This document shows, piece by piece, positions 22,601 through 40,822 of a DNA stretch of 64,000 bases. The first letter of the stretch is position 1, and each line of letters begins with the position of its first letter. Origin of the DNA: Owenia fusiformis. Its lineage: Eukaryota > Annelida > Polychaeta > Sabellida > Oweniidae. The DNA is taken from assembly GCA_903813345.2 (NCBI GenBank), contig CAIIXF020000001.1:43493366-43557365 (forward strand), read 5' to 3'. Position numbers and translations under genes: made by a program. The notes under the pieces were generated by a model that saw only the letters and a program-made list of their open reading frames with translations, was not told where the DNA came from and made no database searches.

Positions 22601-25600
22601 TATTTAGTTGCCACTAAAATCTTCATAGTAAGCTGAATGTATGATATTCAAATGTCATTTTCCAAATAAATTGATATTATGAAAACAGTGCAGACTGAGA
22701 TTACTTACATTATATGACATGAAAATAGATAGTTAACCATTTTTACTGAATCCAGGATTCAGTGTAGCGTATAATGCTTTCAGACAGTTGTTTAAGATGT
22801 AATTATTTAAAAGGAATTTCATTTTCAGAGTAGTGATATGCTTTTTATAGCTCACATGGTGAGCTTTGCAATTACTCACTTGTAATTTTTTATTTCAGCA
22901 ACAATTCATTGTTTGCAGTGGCAGCCAACCAAGAGTTTGTCTATGTCTGTAGCAATAGTAGCAAGTCTGTGGCAGCTAAAGACTCACTTTCATTCTATCT
23001 TACACAGCTCCACAATACATGTGCAATACCTAAAGATTCAGGTAAACTTTGTGAATTTGCTTCTGCTGTTCTATCTTAGCAATGCACAAGCTCCTATGTT
23101 TTAGCCAGATGTTTTTACTTAAATATGATTTGCAAAACATAGAACAAGTGTACCATACTAAACTGATATTCCATGTGGCTCTTGCTTGATTATGCAAGTG
23201 TTTTATAGTGATAATTGTTATATGCTGTACAGTAAAACCTGTCAGATGAAAAACCTCTGTATAAGGAACACCTCTCTATAAGAAAAAGTATCTAAAAGTT
23301 CCAAGTTCCATTGACTTATCTGTTTATGGACTATTTTTGTAAGAAACACCTCTCTATAAGGAATGATACTGGTCAGTAAGTCGAGTTTTCTATAAAGTCA
23401 GTTTTACCGGATGCGGATTCTTTCTCTCAACAATAAATTAAAATTTGATATGTGTATTGTACCACTTTTTTGTTATTTTAAAACCAAACATTTCTTTATA
23501 GTAGATTAGAATTGTATGAATCTCCCATCCACTTCCAATTTTCAGACAATCCTCAAAGAAGTCATGGTTACCAGATGAATCGCCATGGCAACCAGAAAGT
23601 CTCTGGTCTAGTCACACTTCCCACAGAGATGTCCACCCTCCCCAAAGGGAATGATTTCTCATCTTTTCTCAAGCAGCATGTGGATCTTGCCCTTGGCAAA
23701 GGATTTGATGATAATGTTGGAAGGAACCCTGTTCCAGCACTGTTTGAGGTATGATATTACTATGTATGATTTACTTCAGCTGACCGTGCTTCAAGTTTGC
23801 CTCCTTCCCTCTTCACACGAGCTACAACTTGTTACAAAGTGGTAGTGGTATTTCTAGTATGCAGGACTAGCGTATATTGCTGCTGTCAATCTTAAAATAA
23901 TGATCACAACGAAATACTTATTAAGGTGATTTATACCTATATTTATTAGACTCAATTAAATCAATGATCACTTGGAATAGAAGTACATGTAATTCAGCAT
24001 AGATTATAGACTGTATTCTTAAAATTCATTTTCTCTTGGAATTATCTCATCTGGGCTATCAGTTTATATGGTACAGGGGTGATCAGATCAAAAAGACGCC
24101 TTGGTAGTGACTCTAATGGTGGAGGTGAACCATCAATTGCCTCAGGAATGAATTTGAACTCCTGTAGTAGGGGTGTTACATACAGGAACATCCACATTTT
24201 GGCCACAGCCTCACCTGGACAACGTCTTAACCCTGGAATAAGCAAAAAACTGATTAACTAGGACCTTCTGCAACCTTAATCTGATGATTTTTCAACCTTG
24301 GCCTGTTTTAGCCTTATCTGGGCCTGATTTAAACTCAATCTGGGGTCTGTTGCATGGATCACATTTCCTAAATTTCTGCTGTCTCAATTCAATCATGTCC
24401 TATCTGTTCATTAAAAGATGCAATTTTCGTTGGAGTCTTTTCAATTTGTCCTATTTGAGTCAATTCCTATTTTCTCTTCAATTTGCGCCACTGTCTGAAC
24501 ACAATTTGTACTCACCAATAGAGAAAGGTACAAATGCTGCTGGTGTGCCAAATCTTATCCCATCTTGGAAACGTTCTGGGCGATACTCTTCAGGCTTTTC
24601 CCATAAATGTGGGTCATTGCTTACTTTCCATAGGTTGGGCACTACAGTGATATTAGAGGGGATGTTGTAACCATGGAGACAAGATGGTGCATTGGTTCGT
24701 CGCTTGATTGCTGTGTGTGGACTGATACGTAACACTTCCAGTATGCTACCTTCTGTATAAGGCAAGATATGGTTCAGTTGATCTTGGCCATTTGCTGCTC
24801 TTCCTTTTAGGTACTGCAAGCACAACATATCACACAAAAGGGACAAAGAGGCATTGTTCATCTTAAATGGTAGTGAACAACACAATTTATAAAATATAAA
24901 TAAATGATCAGCGAAGATTGGCTTCCATATTCCCATAAGAAAAAAGTGAAAGTGATGAGTTGCAGAATTGCAGAAAGTACATATTAAGAAAATGAAATGG
25001 ATGAATCCAAAGTAGGCATGGTTTGATTAATGTTTGAATATTAAAGCCATTCAAATAATTTTAGCTCAAAAATATCTTGAGGGACTGATGCCCCAAAACT
25101 TCTTAGCCATTCAAAAATTAACTCAGAGGGATTTATACGATTTAAAGTATGGTCTACAAGAGATAGTTATGCTTAAGACAGTTTTAATTTTGATAGTATT
25201 TACACGTAACTACCATTTCCATCGGATAAATCTGGAATTGGAACAAAGGGAAAATGGTTTAAATGTAGTGATGTTCCAAAACAGATTGACAGATTGTTTT
25301 GAGTGCAGATGTACCTACCTGATCTATCTCAGATTGTACTTTACTCTGAACTGCTGGATAGTTGAGCATATATAAGAAATACCAGTTGAGATTTCTAATT
25401 ATCCCAGGAACTGTTAATTGCAGGAGGTCCCATATTACAGCTGTGAGCTCATCAAATGTGCATGTGTCCTCTCCCTTTGCCTCTAAGCGTTGTTGTATAT
25501 TCTTTCTCAGTTTGTCTGCTAGTGCATTTCCAATCCCTAAATTCAATTATAAGAATTTTTGAGATATTTTTTTACATACATGTTGTTGTAGCCACATCAA

Positions 25601-28600
25601 GTTTTCTCTGTTTGGGAGTTAAAGTAGAACAATTAAATCTGTAATTAAATATCACTTAGCTGCTTATACAACAATCACCTAAACTCGGCCATTTTGGAAA
25701 TCTATCATGGTGAGATCATTCTCAGCTCACTCAAAAAAGCAAGGATTCGTACAGTATAGGTTAAAAAATTAGGAGGAAACTTTCATGACACAAATTTTTT
25801 TTAGAAACACTGTTTTTAAACCATTTGACTTACCATTTGGCTTTTTCATGAAATGTGCCTGGATCATAGTTTTCAGCACTGACAGAATCTTCTTTGTGTT
25901 CTCAATATAAAGTTTCACAGGTTCTGTTTCTCTTTTCTTTGGCTCCCAGTCTGCATCTATTACTTTTGGGCGAAGTGTTAGAGATGTCACAAAGAGAGGG
26001 ATTATTTTCTTGTCAATATCATCTGTGAAGTCAGTAAAACTTGTGCCAAATATCATAAAAAAGAAGTTTCTCAGTAAAGGTCTGGCTAAGACTTGACCTG
26101 AAAAAATCATGAAATCACTGAATAAATTTCTTTTTGTGATTGCCCATTTTTGTGTACATTCCCTCTTGGTGTACAATATTGTTTGCAATTTTGAATCAAT
26201 TTGCGATAATTTGACATGATATAAAAATCTAATATACAGTGCACATCAACAATAGATAAAAGCTTATTTATCATTTTTGAGAATGCTATGGAATATGGAA
26301 CTAAATTGGAAAAAAAGCAGGAATATTATAGGAATATCCTATGGTTTTGAAAAAATATCATTTATATCCATGAGTGGATATTGATATCTTCATGAGTGAG
26401 CGCAGCGAATGAGTGAAGATATTTGTATCCATGAGTGGATATGATTGATATTTTTGAAAAACCATAGGATTGTCCGTTTATCCCATGGGAAATCATCATC
26501 AGCGAAAAAGTTGAAAAGTATAATTTGAGAAAAATTTGAAAAAAGTGAAAAAAACATTTTTTTTTGAAATTTTTAAAAAATATTTTTGACAATAATAATA
26601 ATAATGATAATTAAAAAAAAAGTAAAAAGAATTTTTTTTGAAAAAAATCGAAACCATTGAATATCACTTTTCAAACCATCGAATATCACTTTTTAAGACG
26701 TGATATTCGATATTTTAAAGTGATATTCGATGGTTTGTGAATTTTTTGATAAAATATGATATCTTGATCCACATATCAAATATATCTTCATGTGATATTC
26801 GATCTATATCCTTGCAACCATGGGATAAATGGGAATATGTATATATGACTCACTGATATCCAATTTAGCACCAGTCTTTAATATTCCCCTTAAATAGTCA
26901 AGTTCAGCCTTTATTGATTGCTCAAATCCAATTGGCTGGCGTATAACATTGTTGGAGTAGTACCTCATGATAATCTGTCGATAACTCTTCCATGTTTGTC
27001 CAAATGGTAGATTGAAAAAACCTTCATCAAAGAAATAAAAAATCTAAAAGATGGAAACATTTTAACAGTTCGAAGCAGTTTTGAACTTTTAAAACATTGG
27101 GGTATTTTAGCATCACAGTTGAAGACTTAGTCACTTTAAGCTCACACCGGAATAGCCTGACACAGTAAAGTCAGATGCCGTTGTCACAAATGGCGGACGC
27201 TAATTCTGTGCATGTATCAAGCTCTTGTGATGATGTATTATATGAAATCCCAATTTAATAACAAATGCAGTCGTGAATCACCACAATATAGCATCTTCGA
27301 TATTGTCAATGACAATGGAATCTGAATTTGAAATAACTTACAAAGACAACGGCATATGGTAAGATGTGACAACAGACTATGGTGGATGTATTGCATTGGA
27401 GCATAGGAAAATGACAACAATATTACCATTGTGACAATGTGTGAAGCTAGGATGAAGAATATATTTCTGGTTTTGATAGTTCATTTTATCAACAATGAAT
27501 AACTTCAAAACTAACCTCTTTGCCCTTGAACTTCATTTGTTAAATAGTCAAAGGGTCTATCTCCATATGTTCGTATTTGATGTACAAATGCCTCATATTG
27601 AACATCATATTGATTCAAAATCAGCAGTGGTCGTATTCCTAAATTTCCCTGAAGGAGACTGGCACTTGTGTTGGCCAGGTCTCTATATGGTTCATCTCTA
27701 GTTTGTAGTAAGGCTGGGTTCAAGACTGGTGCTGCTTTGTTGTGTGGGCACCCTGGGTGATCAAGCTTACCATCTCTGTTAAGGTCAAGAGAATCGGGTA
27801 CTCCATCATTGTTCTCATCATCACTACCAGCATTATAAGCATCTGTAGAATGAACATTTTCAATTGCTAGAATTTTAATTTAATAAAATTTTAATTTTAA
27901 TTTCTTTTTAATTAAAATTTTTAATTTTAAATCAAAAAAATCAAATATATTCACCTTGTCAACTAAAAATTCTTATTGTATTAAATACACCTCTACATCT
28001 CAATCTTAAACTTTAGATACTGTACTGCATATTGAATTCAGAAAAAAGATTGCCAAAGAAAATCTCTTAGATTTAGGCCTGTTGAACTGTTACCTATTTA
28101 AGCACAGAAAATGTAATATTAAACTCCATGAAACTCCATATTAATATTTCAGAAAACTCAGAAAAGCCCATATGAAGTTACAAAGATATATGTACTTACA
28201 TTTATATATACTGGTGACCCCCGGTAAAGCAATGAACAAGACAATGGCCAGTTTAAGGACCACTGACATTATTAACTGCTAGAAAACACAATGCATCAAT
28301 CAGTCAATTATCAATGTACCTGTATGTCCTGTAAGAAGAAGTCGCATGATATAAAACAAATTGAATAACGATCTCCTTTCAGGGAATATAATCAAAATGT
28401 TTAATTATGCTATGATATATTTTGCAACAAGATGACATAATTAATTAATCATACAAATGGGTTTAGGCTCTTATTTAGTGCCTTTGTTTATTATGCAATT
28501 TTAACAATTGATGGTTTTTTTTAAATTTATTTACTGAACATGTTTGTTTGGCAATACATGGCACTTAATACAGTATAAATTAATTGTATAATTTTAACAA

Positions 28601-31600
28601 TAAAATAATCTTATTGTTTAACATCATGAAAAGTATTGTAAAATACCTTCCTTTTAATTCTGGACGTGGCAAGCCAGTATAAGAGGGGGTAGTTTATTTT
28701 GAAACCAAAATGGTGTATTTGGGTCTTACTAAAACATGAAGGGTAGTTGTAGGGATCTCAAGCTAACAAATCCATAAAATGTGAACATGAGAAGTTTGAA
28801 GACTTTGAAGACTGAATGAGGGTGTTGAAGACTTTGAAGACTGAATGAGGGCGTTGAAGACTTTGAAGACTAAATTGAGGAGTTGAAGACTTTGAAGACT
28901 AAATGAGGGCGTTAAAGACTTTGAAGACTAAATGTAGCAAGTGAAGACAATTTGAGAAATTATTGGTAAAATCTAAACTAATTGCTTAAAAAGCAAAATA
29001 AATGGTCGGACTGAATTGATGAACACTCGTAACACCTTAACACACATGATAAGACCAAAATTGAAGTCTTGAAGGCAATTTATCAATTGTCCTAACAGAC
29101 AATCTATCCATGCCGTGACCTTGGCTATGAAAGTTAGAAAAACACCCTACCACGTCAGGAAAACCCCAGCAGCACTGCTGGGAGCTGAGTAAAAACCTGA
29201 TATTTATATGAAAAGTTGAATACCAAACTCACAAAAGTAATGTTTAAATAACCAATGAACAGCCAGCAATGCTGAGCAGTTGCCACATAAATAGTTGTCA
29301 ATAGACACACTTAAATGCATATACACATAAATACATGTTGCTGTTCGATTTAAGCAAAGAGAGTAAGGTTATAGTACATGGAGCTTGATGAACATAAACA
29401 GCAGTTATTGATATACAATGGGGGTTTGCTACAGTATGAATGACAGCCTAGAAGATGGCTATACTATTGAAGCATTCAGGAAACTGGGCAAATAGTTCTG
29501 GTGTATTCTGTAATTTTTGTTATCCCACCTAACCAATTTAGAGAGGTATATAGAGAAGCTGTCAGTCCATCTGCCTGTCTCTTCGTTCATTTTTTAATCT
29601 GTCCAGACAATAACTCAAGTAAATGATGGATTGGATATCTACTGAAGAAGGAATTTTCAAACTGAAAATTAGAGATACAAGATGCTTTGGGTCTTTGAAA
29701 AGATTTTTGAGATAGACATGGCTGAATAGACCTCTTACTCAGATTGTGGTCTTCATTTAACTGACACCAGGGTATATTGTTTCAGACTGAATCCTGTGAG
29801 CTGACACTGCAGATCTGTGACGCCCTGTATGAGTTCTTCATGATAGACCCTATGGGCACAACTGGCAAACTACATTTCAACACATTAAAAACCAAATTGG
29901 AAGTTGATCTCAGGTTCTCAGAAGGGTAAGCAGAAGCAAGTAATGTACACCATGCAAACAGTCAAAACTGCCATAGGGCCATAGTGTAGCTACAAGCCCC
30001 TATGACCCCCCTCCCCCCCCCTCCTACTACTCGACTACACATGTGTGAAAATATGTTTCGGGAGGTGTGTATTGAGAGCACAAAGGGTTGAAACTAAGAG
30101 TACACAACAACATCTGTAAATTGAATACCTTGCAGTGGGAGCTTTTATTCAGAGTCAAAGTGTTCCATTTGATGTAATGTTAATTGAACCTCTGTAACAT
30201 GAACAAATGTGAAGCTTTTTTAGAAAAAAATCAAATGTGTTCCACTGCACTTACAATTCCCAGTTTCAATGTCAGCTGAAAAATTGAATTTCAATTGAAG
30301 TTCAATATTTTGAAATGGAATAACAGGATTATTAGATGGTAACTATGAAGTGAATGGGACAGAGACTTTATGCAGGGCTGTTCAACTTTGAAATTCTCTT
30401 CCAGACGATGTGGTAAGATCTTACCTTTGGCAGAAAATGCTTATGCAGAGGGACTCCCACAGCATTATACGCGAAGCTACCACCAACAGAAGGTAACACA
30501 TCAGTATTCATTGTATGGTGAACCAATATGGGTAGAGTCCCTTACTTATACTTCTTATTAGTCAATTCATCGAATGGAGTATTTTAGAATTGGTTTTTTG
30601 ATTTTTAAATTAGGACAATTACGATTATTTTTGTGTTCAAATCTTCCTGGGCAATGCAGTAAGATTTTGACAAATTTTTGAGCTAGCCTATCTGGCATTT
30701 AAAAGTTGATTGATGGACTCCCAAAATATATGTTCTTTATAGAAGGAGCTTGTATGACTCGACCCTGAGACATCTAGGCTATAACATCTTCAACTATCTT
30801 GATGTGCCAGCAACCTAAATATGCCAAACCTGCAACCCCTTTAACATATTCAGTTTCCTTTTCTATCCCTCATCAGCTGGCAGCTGCTAGAAGGGTTCTG
30901 AGCCAACATGCTAGAGGACCAGCCAGTGAGAAATATCTGAAGCAGCTAGAAGAGGAGTGTACAAGGATCTGGAAGAGTGGGAGAGAGCTTTGTGAACAGA
31001 CGAGTCTCACTGGGAACCATTGTACAAATGCAGTAAGTTTCATGTTAAATTTCCACCTTCGTAAATAATATGAAAATATTTCAATAGGCTAATACTTTTA
31101 GTAGTGTTTAGTACTATTAGAAACCCTCTTCATCTCATGCCCATGAAAGGCACATACTGAGGTATCTAGTTGTCTGAATGACACACATCATATATCAATG
31201 AAGTCATTTTCTAAAACCTCTGGAATTCGCAATTCGCATTTTCACCCATCTAAGTACCAATCTTGTAAGGAAAGCCATGATAAGGAAATCTGCCAGTACA
31301 AGTGACCCAAAGGGGTAATAACTGTACTGTTATATCTATTCAGTGATATTATCTTGTAGCTGCATAGACTCAGTGAAGATGAAGATCAGAGTAACAACCA
31401 AGGTGTTAAGTTACCTGTATTACCACATGCCAGCCAGGTGAAAACAAAGTCTACCTGTAACTGTGGGAGGAAACAATCTGAAAGAGAAGATCCATTTGAT
31501 CATAAGGTATGCTGAATAAATTAGTTCATGTAGTCCTACCCTACCTCAATTCAAGTAATGATAATTAAGTAAAAATGTGCAGTCAAGTTTACAGACAAAA

Positions 31601-34600
31601 CAACTGTAACATCTTAATAACTGTAATACAGTACATTTATTAAACCAGCTTTGTTCATCTAACCTCTCTCAAACTCCAATTATTTCATGATAAAATACAA
31701 TATCGATGCAGCTGGTATACCTTTTTGAAATCTCACTCTCCAAATGATATAACCAATAATGTCTTGAAATTTTATTTTCAGGCTGCTAATTTTGACTTCT
31801 ATGACCAATTAAGAAAAACATGTTGTGATAAGTTGGAAAATATAGAACTACCAGTATTTAAACCAAGCATTGCTGAAGTAAAAAGTTCTCCTGCTAAACC
31901 AATTGTTGAAGAGGCAGAAACACCTATAGCTAATAAAGATTTATCACGACTAGACATAGTCTCCGGAATGTCAAATTTGAGTCTCACTATGAGTTTAGGT
32001 GAGTTGAAATATTTTATTCAGGTCCTTAATGGTACTTTAGGATATTACACAGTTTCATATTCATGTTATTCTCTTGTTTCCAAAAATGTTAATTTGGAGG
32101 TAATTCTAGTTCTCTTCAAGGATGAAGGATATGTGTGTGACTTCCTAAAATGACACCATTTATCCCTGGTATAATTTTGGGGAATTCTGATGTTTAAGCT
32201 AGAATCAGAGATGTAGAGGCTGGCAATATTGCAAGCAATGTTTTAAATAAGATGTATGATATGTCACATGGTTATTTGAGACCACAAGACTGAATATAAT
32301 AAGAATGTTGCTCTTGATCTGATACTGCCTTAAACTATTCATAGTTTCAACATTCAATAAGCCTATAATCTCACAATAATATGCAATTATAGTTGAATCA
32401 GAGGCCAGTGATTCCATGTACAGCCATGGTCCCCAGGGAAGTTTCACCACAGAACCACAACTTGAGCAACCACAACATGCAAATACAGAGCAAGGCTCTC
32501 AGAGAGATGACAGTCCAGAAGCTCTAGGGACTGAAGTTGAGGTATCCCAGCAAGCTACAGGTAAAACACATTGATGTAGACACATTGATACAGAAGAGAC
32601 ACATTGGCACAAATGAGACACATTGATACAGAAGAGACACATTGGCACAAATGAGACACATTGATACAGACGAGATACATTGATTGAAAGGAGAGATAGC
32701 GATACTAGATCAGTTTAAATGATACCTACATTTAAAGAAATGATTGATTCATTATATATATCTAGTATTCATTGGTTAACCAAGATTAATTCTAGCTACA
32801 TCCTATGTTGTAAGTATTATTTGTATAAAAAGGTTGAAATGATGACTTTATACATGAAACATTATCAATGATTCATTATTTTCAAATGATTGCAGAAAGA
32901 CAGCATTCCACTACAGAGTATTTAGCAGGGATGCTCCATAGTGTTAGTCCACCTGGTCTCCTGCCACAATTTCCTTCATGGTCCCTTGTAGGGTTGTCTA
33001 AATACAATGCTTACTCATATTCACAAGGTAGGGGATATGGCTTAATGGTGCTGTAGGTTGAGACGAATGAGTAGGCCTAATCAAGACAGATTGCATGAAC
33101 CTGCATTTTGAATTGCATCCTGACTTCTCCGACTCTAGCTTAGATAAATAGTCAACAGTTTTGTTTCTGAAAAGAAACTGACATGACTGATGTAGCCTTT
33201 TGTAAGAGTTTGAATATGAAATAAATGCCACCTATTCATGAAGTAATAATTTTATGTTCCACACTGTCGCAACGCATTTGTTAAGTAAGTTGTTCAGTGA
33301 AAGGAAAAGACTGCATGCAAACGTGTTTTATTCTACTATCAGGTCTTGACCAGCCTGGGTTCTTACATGGTGGAAACTTTCTTCTTCCCTGGGACCTCAA
33401 TGGGAAAGGGGACAAGGAGAAATGGCCTACTGTAGCGGAAATGTCAACCAAAAAGGGAAAGTCAAAGCGAGGACAAAAAGGTTAGTGATGACATTAATTA
33501 TATACAAAACCTAAACCGAGTGTCATTTTTATGTTCATCACCAGAAGTGGTGACATACAAGTATTGTTATAGTTTTGTGGACGGTGTTTTCTGGACAGTG
33601 TTTTGTGGTTGTTGTTTGGCATCTGTAACAGTGTTTTGTGTCTGTAACACTGGTCGGCATCTGTAACAAATGACAGGTTGTGACATTTTGCATGTTTAAA
33701 ATGTCTTGTTTTTTTATTTTTTATTATTTAACTGTGAAAAAATCATGACTATTTGAAGTGCTTTTGAGAAATGTTTGAGAATCTGCAAAAAAATTTGAGC
33801 AATACTAATTTCCACCCAATGTTAATATTCTATAAATATTCCAGATCAAGCTTCTGAAGTGAATGCAAAGATCTATCTTGGAATTGAATATGAATGCCCC
33901 AGGGGCCACAGGTTCTTTATCACATCCCCTGACAAGATTCTCAAGCTCCCCAGTGGTGCAACAGGGCCCCCTAAAGAGAACGCTGCAAAGTTATTGAACA
34001 CAGATTTCCCACTATACACAGCCTGCCACTGCAGGTATGTTAAAGGGGTACGGGTAAAAGGGATGAATAAAGTGCAACTTTTTCTTGAATTTCTTCACTC
34101 TTACTTTAAGATATGTTGATAACCCTTTGAAATAATACCCAAGTTGACTTGAAACTCATAAAGTGAACACCTGGAGAAATCTTGAGATTTTAGTCAATAT
34201 CTGTAACCATGGAAATGTATAACAAAATGTGTTATAAAGTAGTCAGCCAGATTTGAAACAAATATACTCTACTACTACTACTTCTCATACTCCAGTATTG
34301 TGTGCAACCAGGTTGTGACAATTTCTCATGTTATTGAGTTTAAAATATTTGTTTCAGGAGTGCAAAAGGCTACATAGCTCAGTTGATGCGTGTATTTGTT
34401 GCTGTCCCTGAGGGTCCAGTAGAGGTGTCTCTCACTCCAAGGGTACAACCAGGACCTCCCCCATGCCCTGTCTTCCACCCTGGAACCACAAGTGCTGTAC
34501 CATTACCCAAGGGCAAAATATGGGTCCTTAGACTTCCGTATCCTTTAATAAATTTACACCACCAACAGTAAAAGCTTTATTCAAATCACAATAAATTTTT

Positions 34601-34911
34601 TTAAATAATCACTGAAGTTTGCATATCCAGTATTATCCACATATGTGTTCTGTGTCATGGATGAAGTACTGCATATACATGTAATTGTTAAGTGTGATTT
34701 GCATGTTATGTGACCTGTATTTGACCAGTCGCAGAATAAGGAACATGATGAAACATGATGATCATATGATTATTGTTATACTCCTTTACTCTAGCATAGA
34801 TTTATATACATTGGTGAAGATGGTCCAATCTTACCTCCAACTGACTCACAACATCTCAATTCTTGTAGACTACTAAAGGGACTGTTCACAATAACAGAGG
34901 ATTCATCATGA
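10609..34911 (+). CDS. SMG8: SMG8, nonsense-mediated mRNA decay factor (19 coding exons)
   Basis: SMG8 is the subunit that, with SMG9, binds and restrains the SMG1 kinase, which phosphorylates UPF1 in nonsense-mediated decay. Coding exons: 10609-10631, 19267-19387, 19753-19794, 20648-20854, 21930-22169, 22439-22527, 22899-23041, 23510-23748, 29786-29925, 30405-30492, 30877-31032, 31360-31506, 31782-31998, 32393-32560, 32896-33027, 33343-33480, 33845-34034, 34358-34537, 34800-34911. All join in phase to 923 aa (human 991). Family landmarks seen: VCVVSIIGKS near residue 25, LLYLFSVSHI near 120, GFDDNVGRNP near 355, the Cys motif CNCGRK at 529-534 followed by EDPFD, and VQPGPPPCPVF at 856-866. 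The acidic middle is shorter than in vertebrates. Exon 1 (MSHSADN plus two bases) is an inference: it fits the phase of exon 2 and sits in a promoter-like stretch. The last intron is U12-type. Confidence 0.93.
12874..13411. mobile_element. Foldback transposon with near-perfect 250-bp arms
   Basis: The arms 12874-13121 and 13162-13411 are inverted copies with only a few differences, separated by about 40 bases. The ends read CACTGCTACCCACC and its complement. The element is flanked by the 5-bp direct repeat ACAGA at 12869-12873 and 13412-13416, so it moved as a unit. Five-base duplications suit hAT5-type or Transib-type elements. The near-identity of the arms implies a recent origin. Each arm contains a start-codon-plus-donor segment described in the findings. 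It lies in SMG8 intron 1. Confidence 0.92.
14780..14952. mobile_element. pogo/Tigger-like MITE
   Basis: About 173 bases between CAGTGAAACCTGTCTAAG and ACAGGTTTCACTG, preceded by TA. The interior repeats GTGTTCAACTT and AGGTGTTCAA. It lies in SMG8 intron 1. Confidence 0.8.
16136..16351. mobile_element. MITE with CAGTGATCTCC ends, copy 2
   Basis: 216 bases. The ends CAGTGATCTCCCC and GGAGAACACTG are flanked by AGATG on both sides (16131-16135, 16352-16356). It is related to the interrupted copy at 8330-9008, sharing the pattern of a capped TTGCACCCA or TGTGTGCAAG segment. Confidence 0.82.
17513..18624. mobile_element. Foldback MITE family F, copy A, with internal pogo-like insert
   Basis: The outer arms are inverted: a segment beginning ATTGTGCAATAATATATGG at 17515 and its complement ending near 18616. 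An inner inverted pair (CCTAACTTTTGTATAT / ATATACAAAAGTTAGG) lies at about 17682 and 17860. The pogo-like MITE at 17952-18452 sits inside. Copy B is at 61676-62412. No protein is encoded. Confidence 0.7.
17952..18452. mobile_element. 501-bp pogo/Tigger-like MITE
   Basis: The ends CAGCAAAACCTGTCTAATC and CAGGTTCTACTG are flanked by TA on both sides (17950-17951, 18453-18454). The interior repeats AGATTAGGAGGTGTTCACAT. It is longer than the other copies. Confidence 0.82.
20467..20629. mobile_element. Small foldback MITE in SMG8 intron 3
   Basis: About 160 bases folding back on itself: GGAATAAATAATG at the left end, its complement at the right end, and CAATATGGTGAAATT and GGTTGGACAGAA matched further in. 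No clear target duplication. Confidence 0.65.
20997..21617. mobile_element. Tc1/mariner-type MITE in SMG8 intron 4
   Basis: The ends are CAGCACGCCAAAAAAAACGCC (degraded left) and AAAGTGGCGTTTTTTTGGCC followed by CACCCTG-TA. They are inverted repeats of the mariner form CAGGGTGGGCCAAAAA. TA follows the right end. No transposase is visible. Confidence 0.72.
21810..21880. mobile_element. pogo/Tigger-like MITE fragment
   Basis: Begins CAGTAAAACCTGTCTGATGG after TA, with the GAACACCTCTTT motifs. The right end is not recognisable. It ends 50 bases before SMG8 exon 5. Confidence 0.55.
23230..23408. mobile_element. pogo/Tigger-like MITE in SMG8 intron 7
   Basis: Begins CAGTAAAACCTGTCAG after TA. 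It contains ACACCTCTCTATAAG twice and ends in a degraded GTCAGTTTTACCGG. Confidence 0.65.
23944..23949 (-). terminator. Candidate P450 polyadenylation signal
   Basis: On the minus strand this reads AATAAA (within the forward stretch tatttattag), about 95 bases after the P450 stop codon and 200 bases clear of SMG8 exon 8. Position is to within a few bases. Confidence 0.35.
24042..28269 (-). CDS. Atypical cytochrome P450 nested antisense in SMG8 intron 8
   Basis: Seven exons, read on the minus strand: 28269-28200, 27842-27516, 27021-26854, 26097-25834, 25536-25319, 24813-24516, 24232-24042. All join in phase to 511 aa. A hydrophobic signal or anchor covers residues 2-20. P450 landmarks: C-helix WKSYR at 143-147, K-helix EVLR at 375-378, YRPERF, and the heme loop FSIGLRRCPGE with ligand Cys453, an exact FxxGxRxCxG match. 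Two things are odd. Residues 31-55 read like thrombospondin type-3 or dockerin calcium loops (NNDGVPDSLD, NRDGKLD) where the proline-rich hinge should be. In the I-helix, the usual AGxDT is replaced by LTVPGI at 317-322. General similarity is to the CYP2 clan. The missing acid-threonine pair occurs in P450s that rearrange substrates rather than use O2, so a non-monooxygenase role is possible; substrate unknown. Confidence 0.92.
26340..26840. repeat. Palindromic low-complexity element in P450 intron 3
   Basis: The stretch holds several nested inverted repeats: TATCCATGAGTGGATA twice, ATATTCGATGGTTTG in both orientations, and ends reading CCTATGGTTTTGAAAA and CAACCATGGGATAAA. A CACTCATTCGCTGCGCTC motif (minus strand) recurs in similar form near 16270. 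It looks like a decayed composite of foldback elements. Confidence 0.5.
28797..28947. repeat. Minisatellite, period about 31-35, five units
   Basis: Repeats of GTTGAAGACTTTGAAGACT followed by A-rich GAATGAGGG or AAATGAGGG. It lies in SMG8 intron 8 about 530 bases upstream of the P450 start. No splice sites were seen around it. Confidence 0.85.
32569..32690. repeat. Short tandem repeat after SMG8 exon 14
   Basis: Alternating units of GACACATTGATACAGAA and GACACATTGGCACAAAT, about 17-18 bases each and a composite period of about 35-36. It starts nine bases inside the intron, right after the donor GTAAAA. Confidence 0.85.
34538..34799 (+). other. U12-type (minor spliceosome) intron, last intron of SMG8
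   Basis: The donor is GTATCCTTT at 34538-34546, matching the U12 consensus RTATCCTTT. A candidate branch site TCCTTTAC lies at 34782-34789, about ten bases before the acceptor AG at 34798-34799, the short spacing typical of U12 introns. A competing AG at 34793-34794 does not restore the frame. Joining 34537 to 34800 gives LRLP-FIYIGEDGP, which aligns without gaps to the vertebrate C-terminus. Intron phase is 2. Confidence 0.85.
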
Positions 34912-35071
34912 GGAGGAATCTAAATTATTGAAAATTAATGTTGATGTAGATGGAATGAGATATATTAAGAACCTAGCTTGAGGACGCCAAAAAATAAGGA
35001 TTATATTAGTATTTGAGGACTCTGGCACATAAATGAAGATTCTGAGACTATTGTTAGACTGTTTTGAAATG

Positions 35072-35077
35072 AATAAA
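35072..35077 (+). terminator. Candidate SMG8 polyadenylation signal
   Basis: This is a canonical AATAAA, 161 bases after the SMG8 stop codon and before the next transposon at 35252. It is the first such hexamer downstream on this strand. Confidence 0.45.
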
Positions 35078-35251
35078 ATCTGAAAAGTTATTGAACCATT
35101 AGTTTTTAAGTTGTTACAAAAGCCAAGTCTGGGGTTTAATCCCAACTAAAAAAACTTTATCTTTTCATTTATATTACAGTTCTATTATATATCTATTTAA
35201 ATCAATAACATTATTCAGAAAATCTCTTCATTCAGAATATGTGTTGATTAA

Positions 35252-35853
35252 AGGAATATTCCTTGCCAGGCCCTTTCTCTCTTGATATGGTAGCTATAAT
35301 CATATATATAGTTTCCATATTTAGCAAAACATGGGAAAATGTTTTAATGTGGTCAATATTGATCATTTAAAAATCTAGTGCTTATTTCCAGTGAGCTGCC
35401 ATCTTTTAAGATTTCTTGCAGGAAGTGATGTCATCAACTCTCAACTTCTATAACCTTGCCCATAACAATATAGGAAAGTAGCACAAAATCACTTCTAGAT
35501 AAGTGATCATTACTTTCCGTGCAAAAATATTTTCAGGGCTTGTCAACTTAGAATAAAAGAAGAGATTTTCAGAAGGATTAAATAAGATACAAAGTTGAAA
35601 AAGAATATTTAGCTGGTTTTGTAATTCTTAATAGCTCCTCACCTAATGCTATATGCAAAGTTGAGAGTCGATGACATCACTTCCTGTGTGAAATTTTAAA
35701 AGATGGCAGCTTACTGGAATTGAGCATCACATTTCTAAGTGATCAAATTTGACCATATCAAAACATTTTTGCGTGTTTTGCTAAACATGGCAAGCATATA
35801 TATGATTATAGCTACCATATGAGGAGAGAGATGGTTTGGCAAGGAATATTCCT
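35252..35853. mobile_element. 602-bp foldback MITE flanked by TTAA
   Basis: The ends are AGGAATATTCCTTGCC and GGCAAGGAATATTCCT, flanked by TTAA at 35248-35251 and 35854-35857. The arms extend about 200 bases each as imperfect inverted repeats (for example GATGTCATCAACTCTCAACTT). TTAA duplication fits piggyBac- or Kolobok-type elements. It is 340 bases downstream of the SMG8 stop codon. Confidence 0.88.
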
Positions 35854-36169
35854 TTAAGGATTATCACCTGTACATTTTTGGAATGGTTTGGGATCACCTT
35901 GAATGTTGGGAACTCAATTTTTCAACTACTGTAAATTGCTTTAATTTGATTTCCGTTTTTTTAATGTGGCTGATGGATGGAAACCACCAAATTAAGTCTC
36001 CGCTAATTTTTTAAAAAATGAAATCCCTAGACATGTTTTCGTATAGTGCTTTTTCCATGTCTTACTTAGCACGATTTAACTTTGGTGAAAATCTTGACTG
36101 AATCATGGATGAAATGTCAATTTTAAACTATTTCCGAAGACCTACAGGTTCAGATAAAACAATCTGATA

Positions 36170-39770: not shown

Positions 39771-40244
39771 TTATGCAATGAAGTCAAGCGGTCTGTTAAA
39801 GCCTCCCCTTCTGTTCATGTATTGTCTATATTTTCTTTTGTGAAGAATGTTTGCGACATATGTATCATTACCATCAACTTTTTTGTTTTTAGTTGTATCG
39901 AAATTTCCAAAACCCATCACCTTCATCATTTGGATCTCCTCCTCAGATTTCCCTTCGAAATCTGCTTCTGAGAGCTGAGGAGCGTTACTAGCTTCTTTGG
40001 ACGACGATGCTTCGCTTATCTCTTCCTCATACCTATCGTACTCTCTTCCGCGCTCATAATCTCTGCCCCTGCTATCCCGACGTTCTCTGTCGGGTCGATC
40101 TCGCCTCCTTGGTGAATTGGATCGAGACCTACGTCTTCTTGGAGACCTCGAACGTCGTCTTCTTCTATCCCTGTCTCGTGAACGGGACCGTGAACGTCTT
40201 CTTTTATCTGCTCTTCTGGGAGAGCGACTTCGACTCCTTCCCAT
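39771..40244 (-). CDS. SNRNP27: SNRNP27, U4/U6.U5 tri-snRNP 27 kDa protein
   Basis: This is a single-exon ORF of 157 aa (human protein 155 aa). The N-terminal half is an arginine-serine repeat region, starting [11 protein letters not shown]. The C-terminal half is the conserved SNRNP27 core: [20 protein letters not shown], then [20 protein letters not shown] near the end. The protein belongs to the U4/U6.U5 tri-snRNP of the spliceosome and acts in 5' splice-site handling. The start is the first ATG of the RS domain and matches the human start. The vertebrate gene is split by introns, so an intronless intact copy suggests either intron loss or a retroposed copy that kept function; I saw no poly(A) tract right after the stop. 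Confidence 0.95.
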
Positions 40245-40822
40245 TTTTCGAATTTACTCTTTGTCATCTATTATCGCCCACTGACGCAGTATTTATGCGA
40301 CCGTCCACTTTTTTAAACGAAAGTTTTTCCAGGGTGACCAGTGGCTACAGAACGTCTCCAAATACAAAATATCCGAATGTAACTCGTAATTTATAATAAG
40401 AAAGACCAAACAAACTGTATGAAATACATCAATGAAAAGTATCAATCATCTAAAAGCACAACCAATCGTTAGAAATCAAATTAATAAATTGCACGTTTGT
40501 TTTTACAGTGTAGTTTCCGGTTTCTAAATTTTTGACATTTTTAAAATGTTAAGTTTTTAAGTTGCTGTCTAGGCCTACTACCACTCTAATGAGAGGTGAT
40601 ATCAAGTGAAGGTATGTTTATAAAAACTTTAGCTGATCCAAGCCTCTTTGGTTTGATTTTAGGCTTTTGCATCTTCAAAAAGTTTCAGTTGAGTGTGACT
40701 GTGAGTGTCTTTTATGATTTTTATGACACATGTCCAAAAATAGGCTACAGTCATTAACATTTCCTCGACGACTTTGGCCCTGGAAAATAAGAAATTTATA
40801 TAGTATTCGCAATGGGTCTACT

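Follow-up and report, generated by a model that had tools for sequence, protein, structure and literature searches.

Within a 64,000-base window of the Owenia fusiformis genome (contig CAIIXF020000001.1), we found a cytochrome P450 gene of seven exons on the minus strand (28269-24042), nested in an intron of a gene that resembles SMG8. All its splice sites are GT-AG, the exons measure 70, 327, 168, 264, 218, 298 and 191 bases, the introns measure 283 to 756 bases, and the 511-aa product contains no internal stop. The features discussed below are as follows, with positions counted in the window, that is, the whole stretch of DNA that was analysed:

23749..29785, plus strand: SMG8-like host intron of 6,037 bases, with the whole P450 gene inside it on the other strand
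28200..28269, minus strand: exon 1, encoding the leader MSVVLKLAIVLFIALPGVTSIYK (hydrophobic core at residues 7-18) and ending in phase 1
27516..27842, minus strand: exon 2, with the loop module first and then the start of the P450 fold
27784..27819, minus strand: first loop, complete and of EF type (DENNDGVPDSLD, residues 32-43)
27745..27786, minus strand: second loop, incomplete (DLNRDGKLD), then HPGCP; together residues 43-56
27516..27726, minus strand: P450 part of exon 2, from residue 63
26854..27021, minus strand: exon 3, which holds the C-helix WKSYR
25834..26097, minus strand: exon 4
25319..25536, minus strand: exon 5, which holds the I-helix WDLLQLTVPGIIRNL at 25432-25388
24516..24813, minus strand: exon 6, with the K-helix EVLR, YRPERF and the start of the heme loop
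24042..24232, minus strand: exon 7, with the heme-ligand Cys453, the C-terminus YKLIAQMR and the stop codon

The initial annotation, which had been made from the letters of the window, had recognized a P450, and Pfam confirmed this identification: the full 511-aa protein matched p450 (PF00067) over residues 76-490 (profile positions 26-448 of 462) with an E value of 8e-57 and 193.4 bits against a cut-off of 22.8. The heme-ligand motif FxxGxRxCxG is present as FSIGLRRCPG with Cys453, one of four cysteines in the protein, and ExxR is present as EVLR at residues 375-378; the meander YRPERF and the C-helix WKSYR are also kept. By phmmer, the closest solved structure in sequence was CYP2R1 (E 5e-39 over residues 90-509), and the solved relatives, ordered by molecule, were CYP2R1, CYP1A2, plant cinnamic acid 4-hydroxylase and CYP2D6. 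Going by the best solved-structure matches, among which a plant CYP73-type enzyme ranks fourth, the P450 body appears to be clan-2-like. With clan-2 P450s such as CYP2R1 it shares the heme loop, EVLR, YRPERF and WKSYR, but it differs from them in that the loop module replaces the PPGP hinge and in that the I-helix reads LTVPG, not AGxDT.

The host gene was recognized from SMG8-like exons on both sides of the P450 gene, the upstream one ending at 23748 and the next starting at 29786. When the two flanking pieces were joined, they matched positions 282-345 of the Smg8_Smg9 profile with 36.9 bits (28.3 bits for the first frame alone), and three more downstream pieces matched the same profile. Genes that have changed their place or stem from a duplication are commonly found nested in this way.

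We then considered the loops at the start of exon 2. Residues 32-43 (DENNDGVPDSLD) fit D-x-N-x-D-G-x-x-D-x-x-D at every position. The second loop starts with residues 43-51 (DLNRDGKLD), is followed by HPGCP at residues 52-56, and has Gly54 where position 12 needs an acid. Of the two D-x-N-x-D-G-x-x-D loops described in the initial annotation, both are thus present, the second without its final acid. The same annotation had placed the loops and the start of the P450 in one open exon, and exon 2 (27842-27516) bears this out. Since the loops and the P450 start lie together in this single open exon, a wrong exon join cannot have made the junction between module and P450, as had been argued.

DxNxDGxxDxxD is the pattern of thrombospondin type-3, dockerin and EF-hand loops, and the loops described here have this pattern in common with them. 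The suggestion that they are of thrombospondin type-3 or dockerin nature did not hold up, in that neither family was among the hmmscan matches with E up to 10, a list from which the HMMER filters discard most weak matches. An EF-hand_5 match (E 0.08) and a calcium-binding domain match (E 0.032) were both below their own cut-offs. Membership of the loops in the thrombospondin-3, dockerin or EF-hand families was therefore rejected, no Pfam match being above cut-off. A search of solved structures with an alignment of the loops returned eight sequences at E up to 10; the best was SCaMC-1, an EF-hand carrier protein, at E 0.0019 without any single passing stretch, and the other seven had E values of 0.1 to 3.4. 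In contrast to established loops of the three families, the module is therefore below cut-off in Pfam, and its profile matches to solved structures consist of short loop stretches only. From its residue pattern alone, the loop module is predicted to bind calcium, which we consider probable. When exon 2 alone was folded as a single sequence, the pLDDT was 40.6, which is too low to interpret. A pattern search for relatives in viral contigs yielded seven stretches that fitted the pattern, and none of these was confirmed.

To place the module among related proteins, we searched the whole genome of 498,259,871 bases in 525 contigs, in which all matches encountered fall on contigs C1 to C12 and counts are lower bounds where families are large. 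With a 67-residue query taken from exon 2 we obtained 28 matches, namely the P450 gene and 27 others, and a second, mixed query, which was dependent on the first, gave the identical 28 places. The 27 other matches span 21-34 residues at 57-83% identity, with E values from 2e-5 to 0.4 (below 0.001 in 21 of them). Reading their surroundings within loci of roughly 3 kb, we found that all 27 modules sit in frames rich in Gly, His, Tyr and Ala (G/H/Y/A-rich), with tails in which these four residues make up 48-83%; merging tails with identical first 60 residues left 26 distinct ones. None of the 27 frames had the look of an EF-hand protein or an enzyme. The recurrence of the module 27 times in one kind of reading frame indicates that the loops are more than a chance resemblance: judged by sequence, they are a module common to secreted-type, G/H/Y/A-rich proteins encoded elsewhere in this genome. 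From the composition and the signal peptides we infer that the family consists of matrix proteins, perhaps of a tube or cuticle. Its members, with modules like DENRDGVPDSLDANRDGKVD, were seen at loci L031-L049, L065-L067 and L079-L081, and many of them also carry a VGPNGAVVKSPSGLIVGDNGGYI repeat, for which there were 22 matches with E no higher than 1.

Some of the module genes have a single exon, in which an in-frame signal peptide (MLKFVCLFALVAIACAAP) is followed by the loops. Among split genes, a signal-peptide exon was present in nine of the ten module loci scanned, with none for L079. Because this first-exon scan considered phase-1 donors only, the acceptor provides the independent sign of phase. 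Read by eye in 12 split-gene contexts, which include second or third module exons within genes on C2, the acceptors before the module fit phase 1, L080 allowing more than one acceptor. The P450 gene has this common layout, with a hydrophobic leader exon that ends in phase 1 and an exon 2 in which seven residues precede the loops. It resembles the G/H/Y/A-rich module proteins in having the same signal-peptide exon, phase-1 intron and module in the next exon, but where those proteins continue into repetitive G/H/Y/A-rich tails, here the module is followed by an enzyme. Given this likeness in layout and sequence, the P450 leader and the 5' ends of the module family are likely to share a common descent.

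We also compared the module at the DNA level with six of 20 distinct copies, comprising five of the six copies in the C2 cluster and one of C7/C8/C5 type. Over 63 bases, 52, 52, 51, 52 and 50 were identical in the C2 copies and 46 in the C7/C8/C5-type copy. Identical codons, set against recoded controls, gave p values of 0.0043, 0.0060, 0.039, 0.0046 and 0.099 for the C2 copies and 0.26 for the C7/C8/C5-type copy, uncorrected for the six tests. The codon excess is thus strongest for the three C2 copies with 52 of 63 identical bases (p 0.004-0.006) and weaker or absent in the other three. This supports, but does not prove, descent of the P450 module from a C2-type copy. Alternatively, the loops could have arisen independently in the P450 and come to resemble the module through a short calcium-loop motif; in favour of this, the DxNxDGxxDxxD core is short and common, and the codon excess is not significant for every copy. 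However, the similarity extends over 21-34 residues, all 27 other matches are in one kind of protein, and the intron phase is the same and the distance from intron to loop nearly equal. We regard such convergence as quite improbable.

On C5 (L029:8141-8362; C5:12554640-12554861), the P450 portion of exon 2 recurs on its own, without the loops. This lone copy is 63% identical to the P450 gene in amino acids over residues 64-133 and 77% identical in nucleotides over 226 bases, and the similarity begins just past the end of the module and extends 45 bases into the next intron. We take this copy to be a fragment, because no convincing further exon was found in the 9.9 kb read around it and the genome search revealed no other exon near its level of identity. 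Over the 69 codons common to the copy and the P450 gene, dN was 0.24, dS 0.67 and dN/dS 0.36, which, for a sample this small, suggests constraint on at least one of the lineages. The lone copy shows that a piece of the gene was duplicated elsewhere, and one might suspect that the P450 gene itself is a decaying or unexpressed copy, or that its 5' end is mis-modelled. Against this stand the 511 intact codons, the seven exons with GT-AG sites, the conserved heme motifs and the dN/dS value on the comparable codons; moreover, in a simple scan of 27500-36000 neither another anchor-like first exon nor a stretch resembling PPGP turned up. We therefore consider a decaying or mis-modelled gene quite improbable.

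For the anchor and the hinge, we used a comparison set of six distinct P450s read whole (L001-L006), drawn from 106 P450-profile matches and confined to single-exon genes. In all six, the N-terminus is hydrophobic and a P/G-rich hinge is present (QGPLQLP in L005). In the P450 under study the module sits where the hinge lies in these six and a Pro-rich hinge is missing, in agreement with the initial annotation. The 19-residue hydrophobicity of exon 1 is 2.34, compared with 1.89-2.45 for the six P450 anchors and 1.55-2.02 for six signal peptides of the module family. Because the value falls within the range of the genome's P450 anchors, exon 1 may be either a cleaved signal or an anchor. A mechanical charge-difference count was 0 for exon 1, inside the anchors' spread of -1 to 5 and not decisive for topology. 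Signal-peptide cleavage follows a -3/-1 rule, and Val18 and Ser20 occupy these positions before residue 21. The C-terminus YKLIAQMR has no KDEL-like end. There are two N-glycosylation sequons, at Asn81 and Asn403; since two of the six comparison P450s carry four each (the others have none), sequons alone are uninformative on location.

The acidic flank, the common exon layout, Val18 and Ser20 at -3/-1 and the absence of a KDEL-like end favour secretion, and on balance we lean slightly towards a luminal or secreted product. The earlier suggestion of such a product was thus a reasonable inference, tempered by an exon 1 whose hydrophobicity matches that of the P450 anchors in this genome. Such a value is equally what an ordinary ER P450 would show, one in which exon 1 stays on as an anchor, the heme domain faces the cytosol and the acidic module is an unusual linker that takes the place of the Pro-rich hinge, and the intact heme loop, ExxR, C-helix Trp/Arg and meander motifs are in line with it. 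Such an enzyme is harder to reconcile with the sequence after the hydrophobic stretch, which has one Lys, no basic cluster, no PPGP hinge and acidic loops, and with an exon layout that is the same as in the genes of secreted-type proteins; we consider it possible but unlikely.

By ungapped alignment, the position of AGxDT in the I-helix is occupied by LTVPG (residues 317-321). AG is kept in all six single-exon P450s and the full AGxDT in one of them (L002). Six partial P450 loci span the I-helix; [AG]Gx[DE]T is present in L021, L024, L025 and L026 and absent in L022 and L027. The last of these (C1:44516478-44517122) is a P450 on the contig of the gene described here, at a distance of about 1 Mb, with the I-helix DLLEQVPSTLKW. 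According to the CYPome paper of Capitella teleta, conservation of the I-helix is poor in 13 of the 84 full-length CYPs of that species (PMC4229089). A review of the CYP152 peroxygenases gives Arg-Pro in place of their acid-alcohol pair (PMC5818669). The P450 under study likewise has no I-helix acid-alcohol pair and, like CYP152, has a proline in that stretch. In contrast to CYP152, it has no Arg there and its sequence is closest to clan-2 enzymes, so that the likeness is a resemblance only. Since departures from the motif also occur in further P450s, both here and in Capitella, we did not accept the altered I-helix as a strong sign of a peroxygenase and retain it as weak support for peroxide chemistry. 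LTVPG in the I-helix allows peroxide-using or isomerase chemistry, and peroxide chemistry as such remains a tentative suggestion, which we would sooner doubt than accept.

Taken together, we consider it probable that the gene is a chimera between the 5' end of a G/H/Y/A-rich secreted-type gene and a clan-2-like P450 body, with the leader routing the heme domain to the secretory pathway. A secreted-protein 5' end, consisting of the leader exon, the phase-1 intron and the loop start of exon 2, would have been fused to a P450 whose usual anchor and hinge were lost. With this leader, the heme domain would enter the secretory pathway and end up in the ER lumen or outside the cell, and the module, if calcium-folded, would keep it beside matrix proteins with the same module. 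Animal P450s are membrane enzymes that need reductases on the cytosolic or mitochondrial side. Because the cytosolic P450 reductase would be out of reach and the I-helix acid-alcohol pair is missing, a chimeric enzyme of this kind would most likely use peroxides, as a peroxygenase or hydroperoxide isomerase; its substrates, more speculatively, would perhaps be Tyr/His-rich proteins bearing the same module. Carried to its end, this would be a secreted, peroxide-driven animal P450 of the extracellular matrix, with a leader captured from a tube- or cuticle-type protein, which is held in place by its calcium module and oxidises or cross-links Tyr/His-rich module proteins, a scenario that we put forward as a long shot.

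At the level of titles and abstract starts, and with subscription journals poorly covered, we found no P450 with calcium loops of the EF-hand, dockerin or thrombospondin type in the literature; equally, work on P450s that are luminal or secreted, or that come from annelids, contained no such architecture at that level. The initial annotation's remark that no described P450 family is known to have this layout is consistent with both results. The words "calcium", "membrane" and "N-terminal" are absent from the CYPome paper on Capitella, as far as its main text goes (PMC4229089). In a phrase search for secreted P450s, the passages retrieved concerned fungi and no animals. They report 30 predicted secreted P450s in one fungal genome (PMC5870257) and secreted P450 oxidases in another fungus (PMC10106355). 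The former is also a point against our preferred reading of a secreted chimera: prediction alone can mislead, and those 30 P450s are described as predicted to be secreted (PMC5870257).

If the chimera is real, exon shuffling would have moved a P450 to another compartment and possibly altered its chemistry, and the gene provides a concrete case for asking whether animals have extracellular P450s. The source of the module, the altered I-helix and the nesting in SMG8 go beyond what the initial annotation had described. Elsewhere in the window, a match to SNRNP27, a protein of the U4/U6.U5 snRNP, lies at 39771-40253 on the minus strand (Pfam E 5e-29). Intron 3 of the P450 gene contains an AT-rich stretch (26330-26830) in which, by eye, GATATTCGATGG-like words are repeated on both strands, and this stretch may be an inverted-repeat element.
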